From Zasmidium citrigriseum (taxonomy: Eukaryota; Ascomycota; Dothideomycetes; Mycosphaerellales; Mycosphaerellaceae): a DNA stretch of 64,000 nucleotides. Positions within the stretch are counted from its first letter, which is position 1, and each line of letters starts with the position of its first letter. A program made the position numbers and the translations under genes. Shown here in pieces: positions 9,237 through 12,448 of the stretch. The stretch covers positions 806,001-870,000 of the forward strand of contig NHNW01000002.1 of assembly GCA_002786025.1 (NCBI GenBank), given 5' to 3'. Below the pieces are notes generated by a model. It was not told the DNA's origin, searched no databases, and saw only the letters and a list, made by a program, of their open reading frames with translations.

Positions 9237-9988
9237 ATGGCACCAAAGGTCGCTATCGTCTACGTACGTCAACCCTCCAGCAAGCTTTGGGAGCTTCCCA
9301 ACAGCCATTGACTTTGTTCACCGCTGACATGCCACTGTGCAGTACTCCACATGGGGCCACGTCAAGCAGCTCGCTGAGCAGGAGGCTGCCGGCATCAAGG
9401 AGGCCGGTGGCCAAGCCGACCTCTTCCAGATCGGCGAGACTCTCCCACAAGAGGTCCTCGACAAGATGCACGCCCCTCCCAAGGACACCAGCATCCCCAC
9501 CGCCGACCCCAAGACCCTCGAGCAGTACGACGCCTTTTTGTTCGGCATTCCCACCCGTTACGGTACCTTCCCAGCACAGTGGAAGACTTTCTGGGATTCC
9601 ACTGGCGGCCAGTGGCAGACCGGTGCCTTCTGGGGCAAGTACGCTGGTCTCTTCGTTTCGACTGGTACCCTCGGTGGTGGGCAGGAGTCTACCGCTCTTA
9701 ACGCCATGAGCACCCTCGCTCACCACGGTTTCATCTACGTTCCTCTTGGATACAAGACCGTCTTCCCAATTCTGGGTGACATTTCCGAGGTCCGCGGTGG
9801 AAGCGCTTGGGGCGCTGGTACCTTCTCTGTAAGTCCAACATGACTCTCCACAATCTGAACCATTACTGACCACTTCCTCCTCACAGGCCGCCGACGGTTC
9901 CCGCCAGCCAACCGAGAAGGAACTCACACTCGCAAAAGAGCAGGGCAAGGCATTCTGGGGTGCCGTCAGCAAGGTCAACTTCGCGTGA
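9237..9988 (+). CDS. WrbA/Pst2-type NAD(P)H:quinone oxidoreductase (flavodoxin-like), three exons
   Basis: Flavodoxin-like FMN enzyme that reduces quinones by two electrons and protects against quinone redox cycling; yeast relatives are Pst2, Rfs1 and Ycp4. Exons are 9237-9263, 9343-9828 and 9887-9988, giving 204 residues, the normal WrbA length. The first intron follows MAPKVAIVY exactly in the phosphate-binding loop. FMN-site elements are visible: YSTWGHVKQLA, then GIPTRYGTFPAQWK and STGTLGGGQEST. The stop TGA at 9986-9988 is followed at once by CTA and by 63 further open codons (see separate entry). A C-rich leader precedes the ATG. Enzyme call is secure; electron acceptor and location are inferred from family. 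Confidence 0.94.
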
Positions 9989-10180
9989 CTAGATGGCAGC
10001 GCGGCTGGGAAGCAAGACGCTCCTGCTAAGAAAGAGGAGCCACAAGGCGCAGCGAGTGGTGGACAAACGGGACAGTCTGCTAGCAAGCCCGCTCAGCAAC
10101 AGTCGTCCTCTGCGCCGCAGGAGAAGGAAGACGACAGTAAGGGCCCTTGCGGTCTTCCCTTCAAGTGTTCCGTTGCTTAG
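9986..10180 (+). other. Putative stop-codon readthrough extension of the quinone reductase, ending in a CaaX-like box
   Basis: Directly after the TGA stop, the same frame stays open for 63 codons (9989-10177) up to TAG at 10178-10180. The context is TGA CTA G, the strong readthrough motif known in fungi and animals. The extension is a low-complexity Lys/Glu/Gln/Ala/Ser linker (for example DAPAKKEEPQGAASGG and SKPAQQQSSS). It ends in KGPCGLPFKCSVA: a second Cys, a small basic patch and a terminal C-S-V-A that fits a farnesylation CaaX box. Some fungal relatives, such as yeast Ycp4, carry a C-terminal membrane-binding tail in the main frame. No intron of usable size can remove the stop: the only nearby GT...AG pair would be about 19 nt. 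I infer a minor membrane-bound isoform made by readthrough. A recent nonsense mutation or a sequence error are the alternatives. Confidence 0.7.
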
Positions 10181-10346
10181 ATGATACCAAAAAACCTGCT
10201 TAGATGAAGAAATGAATGATGCCTTGCTTGGCAAGTCAATGATCTTGTGTTCATGTTCAAATGTCGTATGCCGAAATGCTAGTCATATCTACCATCTATA
10301 TGTCATTCATAAACCCATAACCATCTATACCCAATCCATCCACGCA

Positions 10347-12448
10347 TCACAAAGTCATAGAATTCGTAGCCTCACTCCCCCACCCCTCCATATCCATCCC
10401 CTCCCCTCCCTGCAAATGCTGATGCTGAAACTGCGCCGCACTCAAATGCAATTCCGACGTCGGCGTAGCAGAAGGCTTACTCGGCAACCCCCTCAACATC
10501 TCACTCGTGGCATCCAACATCTCCAACGCCCCATGGATCCACACGGCTTTCTTGCTGCTCACCGTCAACGTCCATTTGAACTCGTTCAGTCGACAAGCGT
10601 AGAAGTGTGCTTCCTCTTTCCCGGGGCTTGTGGCCATGAGTAAAGCGCCGAAAGTGCCTACTAAAGCGAAGTTGGAGGCGGAGGAGAAGTACCAGAACGC
10701 ATCGAGGTGTTCGGGTTTGAGACGGTTGACGAAGTCCAGGGCGCTGATGAGGCGGGTTTTGGCGGCGGAGCGGCAGATGTAGAGCATATAAGGATCTGAG
10801 ACGGCCGGATCAAGGGACTGGACGATGCGGCGGTGGATGCTGATCTCTGTTGCGAAGTATGCGAGGTGGAGGTAGCCTTGGGAGGAGAGCTGTCCGGGCG
10901 TGAAGCTGTCCATTTTGCAGTCGACGGGGAGTTTGGCGAACCATTCTTTCAATTTGAGTTGCACGGGTTTGGCGCGGTTGAGGACGAGTTGTGTTGCGTA
11001 GCGTCCTGCGGCGACGTATTCGGCTTTGGCTTTTTCGCTGTAGAAGGTGTCGCAGACTTCGGCCATGATGTTGGTCAGGGCGATCATTTGCATGAAGACG
11101 ATGCGGCCTTTGGATACTTGGGTGTCGACTTCGTCGCCGGGGGAGGAAGGGTTCGGGTCGATGGATTCGTCGAAGTCTTCTTCTGTTGGTGGAGAGACGT
11201 TCCAGTCGGCGGCGTTGATGTGTGAGGGTCGGCCGTGCATCACGGCACTCCACTTGTCCTGCATGTAGAGTGCCCAGGCCAGGCGTTTGCGGAGGAGGGT
11301 TTCCCATCGAGGGATTGACCAGTCTGTGCAGTCGAGATGGAGGCCTATGTCTTGGCCTAGGGCGACGAGTTGGACGGTCAACGTCCATGTGCTCGATTTG
11401 GGTCGTTGGAGGAGAAGAAGGCCTGCCTGGACGGCGGAGATCTTAGGTCGTTGCATCGAGATGGTCAGGCTTGTGATGGCAATGTACTCAAGCTTCTCGA
11501 CGTCCGGCTTCGGATGTGATGACACAGCCGGGTCTTGATCCCACCAGGCCAGGGCGAGAAGGTACATGGCAGCAAGCAACGGAGGATTGAACTGTCGATC
11601 GCCATGTTGATGTCGATCGAGGAAGGCGCGTTTCTGGATGATAGGATAGCTAGGATGCACATTGCGGAAGTAAATGTCGATGAGAGCAGACCCGTGAGGG
11701 CCAACAAGCTGCTCAATCTCTGCTAGGGCTCGAGCCTCATCGTCCGGTATTTGCACATCGGCATCGGCATGCGTGCTGAAGTACTCGGAGCCGGTGACCT
11801 GCCGAAGAGTACCGACCCGTGACTCGGTCTCATTCTTATCGTTGAAGTTGCCAAGACCGATCAGAGAGGCATCCAAAGCGGTGGTCTGACCAAGATACTT
11901 GCAATGTCGATGCCGCTGCAAGCTCAGCGTCTCATCCACGGCGAACGGTTTCCTCATCGAGGGCTGAACGACGCCAACAAGTGGAGTCGATGCTGTCGAA
12001 GGCCGGGACGGAGCACTGGGAGGCGGTGGAGGTGGTGGGCGTTGGGCGACGACAGGGCTGCTTTTCTTCGATGGGCTTTCGGTCTTCATGCCATCATCTG
12101 CCTTGCGCTTCCTGGGCTGCGCGTTCTCCACAAACGTGCAGTCTTGTTTGTGGAACTGGATAAAGAAAAGTGTCAGGGATATAGATTTAAGATGAGTAGT
12201 CATATTATACATACCTCGCAAAGCACACATTTCTTAGATTCTTGGAGGACACACTTGCTTTTGCGTCTCCTGCATCCGTCACACGGGCGTTCTCGACGTG
12301 GCCGGTTGGGTTGTGCGCTTTGTTGGAGTTGCTTGAGAGCTGGACGGTTCTCTTTGCCTTCCATATGGTGTTTCGGAGGTGTCCAGGCGGCGATAGGACG
12401 TGGCGAGGGCCGTGGGGCCAACGGAGGGACTGCCATCGCCGTAGCCAT
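10347..12448 (-). CDS. Zn2Cys6 transcription factor, DAL81/TamA-like
   Basis: Nuclear regulator of about 680 residues. Two exons, 12448-12215 and 12155-10347, join in phase 0 inside the zinc cluster. The joined cluster reads C-x2-C-x6-C-x7-C-x2-C-x6-C starting at CDGCRRRKSKC, a complete Zn2Cys6 domain preceded by a basic NRPRRERP stretch. A poly-Pro segment (PPPPPPPSAP) follows. The fungal-specific middle domain begins near LIDIYFRNVHPSYPIIQKRAF and includes LLLLQRPKSSTWTLTVQLVA and GLHLDCTDWSIPRWE, then RLAWALYMQDKWSAVMHGRP. That block resembles DAL81/TamA co-activators of nitrogen catabolism genes; the name is tentative. The last 40 residues are Gln/His-rich. Antisense open frames here are shadows. 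Confidence 0.85.

Follow-up and report, generated by a model that had tools for sequence, protein, structure and literature searches.

The 64,000-nt stretch of DNA analyzed here (the window), from a Zasmidium citrigriseum assembly of 44.4 Mb in 148 contigs, carries a WrbA/Pst2-type quinone reductase gene from which one mRNA probably gives rise to two proteins, a reading to which we assign a probability of roughly 0.78. Most ribosomes would terminate at the TGA at position 9986, resulting in a soluble, 204-residue FMN quinone reductase. A minority would accept a near-cognate tRNA at the UGA of UGA-CUA-G and continue for another 63 codons. This minor, extended form would receive a prenyl group and, as in yeast Ycp4, probably an S-acyl group as well, and these lipids would hold it at the plasma membrane, within reach of membrane quinones that it could reduce. 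Readthrough, its rate, prenylation, acylation and location are inferred. For filamentous ascomycetes at large, we lean towards an ancient and conserved readthrough switch by which one quinone reductase gene would yield both a soluble enzyme and one that is prenylated, acylated and located at the plasma membrane; in yeasts, these would come from separate genes, Pst2 and Ycp4.

Gene structure and enzyme core

The gene consists of three exons (Table 1), and its product up to the first stop is a 204-residue protein that matches the yeast Pst2 structure 5mp4 (E 3.7e-70). It belongs to the NCBIfam family flav_wrbA (TIGR01755, 189.3 bits against a cut-off of 132.5) and also scores above the cut-off of the PRK03767 profile (197 against 141). 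The closest among the listed proteins come from Zasmidium cellare and share 92 and 90% of residues with the query over 76% of its length. A Pfam match to a flavin reductase on C127 was set aside, as it belongs to another protein. The neighboring region 10347-12230 holds, on the minus strand, a 627-aa frame that by eye resembles a fungal transcription factor.

Table 1. Parts of the WrbA/Pst2-type gene and of the frame behind its first stop codon, in window positions.
Feature	Position	Strand	Remarks
Exon 1, NAD(P)H:quinone oxidoreductase, WrbA/Pst2-type	9237..9263	+	MAPKVAIVY; homologues start MAPKxAI
Intron 1	9264..9342	+	79 nt, GTACGT...CTGAC...GTGCAG
Exon 2 of the WrbA/Pst2-type gene	9343..9828	+	
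Intron 2	9829..9886	+	58 nt, GTAAGT...CTGAC...TCACAG
Exon 3 to the first stop	9887..9985	+	...AVSKVNFA; same end residue in two Zasmidium cellare entries
Leaky stop context TGA CTA G	9986..9992	+	Fungal readthrough motif reported in PMC4207609
Putative readthrough tail, 63 codons	9989..10177	+	Hydrophilic linker, then GPCGLPFKCSVA
Upstream Cys codon in GPCGLP, candidate S-acylation site	10148..10150	+	By analogy with Ycp4
CaaX box C-S-V-A	10166..10177	+	From the sequence; Cys at -4 in 77 of 78 listed tailed homologues
Second stop TAG	10178..10180	+	G+C 60% before it (tail), 37% after it (10181-10340)

The stop codon and the open frame behind it

The first stop, TGA at 9986-9988, is followed by CTA GAT GGC and a frame of 63 sense codons in total that closes at TAG 10178-10180; the full readthrough frame translates to LDGSAAGKQDAPAKKEEPQGAASGGQTGQSASKPAQQQSSSAPQEKEDDSKGPCGLPFKCSVA. 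Positions 9986-9992 thus hold the arrangement of UGA followed by CU(A) found in fungal readthrough genes, where a G as next base has been noted as favorable (PMC4207609). The tail ends in GPCGLPFKC-SVA directly before the second stop, placing a C-terminal C-a-a-X sequence (CSVA) on a linker that is rich in Ser, Gln and Lys and, from this composition, predicted to be flexible. The TGA followed by CTA, the 63 open codons and the C-S-V-A end are therefore all present as originally predicted. The second Cys of that prediction is there as well, in GPCGLP, six residues upstream of the CaaX Cys.

The original prediction also held that an open frame of this kind was unlikely to arise by chance. For its length, this did not stand. 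When the stops of all frames of at least 150 codons (stop to stop, spurious frames included) were inspected in the window, 8 of 86 had 63 or more sense codons behind them, and the frame stayed free of stops in 10% of shuffles at tail composition and in 4% at the composition of 9989-10340. The length on its own could be chance and is not significant. The two strands of the window together contain ten copies of the hexamer TGACTA; GC3 is lower in the tail than in the core (0.54 against 0.725), which we counted against a translated tail; and the RNA downstream of the stop folds no better than its shuffles (z -0.17). As the length of the open frame is not unusual, the case rests on the relatives, where a conserved tail and a conserved reading at the stop site go beyond chance.

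These relatives also leave next to no room for a merely accidental frame, or for a sequencing error at the stop. An open run of 63 codons is no rarity in a window this rich in GC, but the window tail aligns with the annotated tails of other homologues, the residue before the first stop is also the last one in two Zasmidium cellare entries, and many other homologues end nearby.

A conserved tail in homologues

Homologues were collected in two protein searches (E<=0.001; best 120 of 3668 and best 120 of 4102 listed), which pooled into 223 distinct proteins. The tail signature is found in 78 of these 223, a share that says nothing of its frequency in nature because tailed proteins, P0025 among them, served as seeds of the second search. 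Another 136 of the 223 are short, ending at most 36 residues past the DGSRxP motif, a class that takes in tandem two-domain proteins such as those of Symbiodinium. The remaining nine are neither tailed nor short and comprise tandem proteins as well as P0036 and P0097, whose annotation is odd.

The listed tails share the ending GPCGLPxKCxxX, i.e. a conserved extension that closes with a signal, as expected of a readthrough gene. A Cys at position -4 is present in 77 of the 78, in line with the conserved CaaX box that had been proposed as a check (the exception, P0148, is labelled partial), and 76 of 78 have a further Cys 5-7 residues upstream of the one in the CaaX box. The 76 tails with the strict pattern end in L (33), Q (21), M (13), S (6) or V, T and A (one each). 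A Leu at the X position of a CaaX box favors geranylgeranylation. Hence, the CaaX box itself was rightly predicted, but with X = L in 33 of 76 tails, the family is not always of the farnesylation type that the original prediction named. A query restricted to residues 198-268 (the tail region, with W at the stop) gave 12 candidates, none at E<=1. Relatives sought at DNA level were absent from viral contigs, and the search of genome contigs gave five loci, all titled bacterial.

Residues at the stop site in relatives

Of the 78 listed tails, 72 are entries from named genomes, and six (P0025, P0126, P0135, P0143, P0171 and P0207) come only from metagenome-type sources that carry no species name. 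In all six metagenome-type proteins, the protein sequence carries Trp-Leu exactly at the stop site, reading FAWLDGS, FAWLAEGS, GAWLDGS, SAWLDGS, KAWLHGW and HAWLDGS, which bears out conservation of the site at protein level. Among the 72 named-genome entries, only Sarcosagium campestre P0181 has Trp-Leu (GWLDGSR). The difference between 6/6 and 1/72 is large (Fisher p 2.7e-8), with the caveat that rows are not independent and that P0025 was a search seed; without this seed, the count is 5/5. The Trp is followed by LDGS in four of the six metagenome-type proteins and in five of the seven Trp-Leu proteins overall.

Stop identity and codon selection in the fungal relatives are deduced from proteins. 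Two of the six, P0025 and P0126, contain an additional W after the CaaX box, at the expected natural stop, and TGA would therefore have been decoded as W in these entries. For the other four, a TGA is likewise suggested, because a common TGG would give Trp-Leu in the named genomes as well, where 71 of 72 are without it. In those 71 entries, the stop, where present, has presumably been annotated with an intron across it, and some of these introns are possibly real.

Comparison of the enzyme cores places the Trp-Leu proteins among varied fungi. P0126 is identical to Halenospora varia P0136 over 91 aa of the core (100%), and it contains 13 residues, VNFAWLAEGSAKE, that are absent from the annotated P0136. 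The nearest named core neighbors of the others are Halenospora for P0025 (89%), Pyrenophora for P0135 (88% over 90), Tricharina for P0171 (92% over 85) and, after unnamed matches, Alternaria for P0207 (71% over 103); P0143 and P0181 are without a close named neighbor among the listed homologues. Halenospora, Pyrenophora and Alternaria, and Tricharina belong to the Helotiales, Pleosporales and Pezizales, respectively, so that the arrangement spans several classes.

Splicing versus readthrough

A short intron over the stop, removed in some mRNAs, could instead join core and tail; an example is GTCAAC..AAG at 9974-10012, of 39 nt. That 71 of the 72 named tailed proteins are without Trp-Leu looks as if an intron was annotated or the frame crossed otherwise. 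In Halenospora varia, the 13 residues that P0136 lacks relative to P0126 correspond to 39 nt, like an annotated intron. Moreover, peroxisomal isoforms in fungi have been reported to arise via both splicing and readthrough (PMC9549241).

In the window gene, the sequence around the stop fits this poorly. Candidate introns were defined as GT..AG stretches longer than 30 nt with a donor in exon 3, whose removal would take out the stop, keep the frame and leave GPCGLP in place. None of the 39 candidates contains a CTRAY branch site, and their five donors are poor (GTTCCC, GTGCCG, GTCAGC, GTCAAC and GTGACT). Four introns checked for comparison, two in this gene and two in a second WrbA copy of the genome, start with GTACGT, GTAAGT, GTGAGA and GTAAGG, and all four have CTGAC, starting 15-21 nt from the intron end. 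At 55-79 nt, they are also longer than the 39 nt of the example above. Several alternative acceptors of intron 2 keep the frame, all of them at the cost of the conserved core end.

The relatives argue in the same direction. Junctions vary within Alternaria (P0102 against P0152 and P0167), as would be expected if gene predictors had forced introns, and the Leu-Asp-Gly-Ser that follows the stop site in five of seven Trp-Leu proteins would not be needed under splicing. An unseen splice event removing the stop, named at the outset as a possible refutation, is thus unlikely for the window gene, and we give it a minor share of the probability; in other species, splicing across the stop may be real.

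Comparisons within the same genome

Four glycolytic and pentose-phosphate enzyme families served as readthrough controls, and UGA-CU with a peroxisomal-type (PTS1) ending was found in one, RPE1 (L019 1783-1806; G000:C13 near 955413). This gene ends CGA TGA CTC CAG GGC AGC AGA CTC TGA, so that the frame past the stop reads LQGSRL, six codons with a PTS1 ending before a second TGA. Readthrough of Rpe1 at UGA CU has been reported in Ustilago, with conservation in other fungi (PMC4207609). The GAPDH gene stops with TAA, and the following frame is without PTS1; two TPI matches stop with TAA and TAG, without the UGA-CU readthrough arrangement. PGK (L013, G000:C138, minus strand) has TGA ATG, not UGA-CU, followed by the frame MHDGAAAKL*, and its AKL end is possibly a cryptic peroxisomal signal reached via weak readthrough or splicing. 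A gene of the published UGA-CU type in the same genome and the protein-level conservation of the tail both support the readthrough originally proposed for the quinone reductase. For the lipid modification, the genome has three strong matches to the prenyltransferase family PF00432, assigned at the level of the family rather than to FTase or GGTase-I.

The second WrbA copy (L011, G000:C95:235639-236343, minus strand) ends KVNFSS, with TCC TGA CTG GTC GGT at the stop and the next stop seven codons on. The leaky context is kept here without the tail, and the short frame may be what is left of such a readthrough region. Loss of the tail does happen, then, and the tail of the window gene could likewise be a relic, i.e. 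an ancestral long frame cut by a stop codon and now untranslated. The apparent Trp at the site in the standard annotation of one lichen fungus (P0181) would agree with such an ancestral long frame. A relic would decay, however, and in the window the frame, the GPCGLP motif and the CaaX box are all intact, with the same layout in distant relatives, which makes a relic improbable, more so than splicing.

Implications of a probable lipid-anchored form

If the readthrough reading is correct, the gene would exemplify prenylation brought about by natural readthrough. As the original prediction had supposed for this enzyme family, no such case is among the open-access literature matches listed (titles and abstract openings). 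The fungal cases of functional readthrough in the papers covered add peroxisomal signals, and a conserved lipid-anchor case would widen the uses of readthrough. It could also explain why this family of enzymes and mould allergens is listed with both about 204 and about 250 residues, and it would mean that some annotated introns at the stop site may be wrong. The WrbA/Pst2-type gene, with one stop codon, one CaaX box and a visible relocation, would make a clean test system.

Should the switch be real, membrane protection might follow conditions that alter termination, such as oxygen. A link to oxygen by way of ribosome hydroxylation, which reportedly acts when C follows the stop, has been suggested for other genes (PMC4207609); for the WrbA/Pst2-type gene, such a link is speculation.

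Comparison with known systems

The closest published systems are the fungal and animal enzymes reported to gain peroxisomal isoforms through UGA-CU(A) readthrough (Tpi1, Rpe1, Art1, LDHB and MDH1; PMC4207609). As in these cases, a cytosolic metabolic enzyme carries a conserved C-terminal extension with a targeting signal, and UGA followed by CUA and then G is present here too. In some species, the signal of the published cases lies within the original frame (PMC4207609). Sarcosagium campestre P0181, with Trp-Leu-Asp-Gly-Ser in the standard annotation and a Trp codon that is presumably TGG, suggests a similar lineage with a constitutive tail. The extension described here differs from the published ones (PMC4207609) in its length of 63 codons and in carrying a CaaX box and a second Cys where those carry PTS1.

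Among other literature matches, a human readthrough study screened extensions for prenylation sites and then focused on PTS1 (PMC4359377), while PMC7697989 was set aside, since it concerns drug-induced read-through of RPGR nonsense mutations rather than a natural extension. Homologues of Pst2 and Ycp4 are listed in a paper on Alternaria eisosomes (PMC6916069), with no mention of readthrough in the passages covered, and a search combining Alt a 7 with readthrough found no open-access paper.

Up to its first stop, the 204-residue product is an ordinary member of the family of Pst2, WrbA and the minor allergens Alt a 7 and Cla h 7. The annotated end of the listed homologues often coincides with the first stop, and 72 named entries are tailed. 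Ycp4 of Candida and Saccharomyces belongs to the same enzyme family. In Candida albicans, Ycp4 is reported to have a C-terminal extension with a CAAX end (PMC4556627), and yeast Ycp4 has been listed among the palmitoylation substrates of Erf2 (PMC5364179) and as an eisosome protein (PMC5753163). These relatives in yeast and Candida are described as quinone reductases of the plasma membrane and eisosomes, with a proposed role in keeping membrane ubiquinone reduced (PMC4556627, PMC5753163). Ycp4, however, is described as the product of a separate gene, whereas the window tail sits behind the stop of a Pst2-type gene. An uninterrupted frame that includes the CaaX box, as expected of a Ycp4 orthologue, is broken here by the in-frame TGA at 9986-9988. 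The window gene is therefore not a plain Ycp4 gene, but its extended form may work in a Ycp4-like manner.
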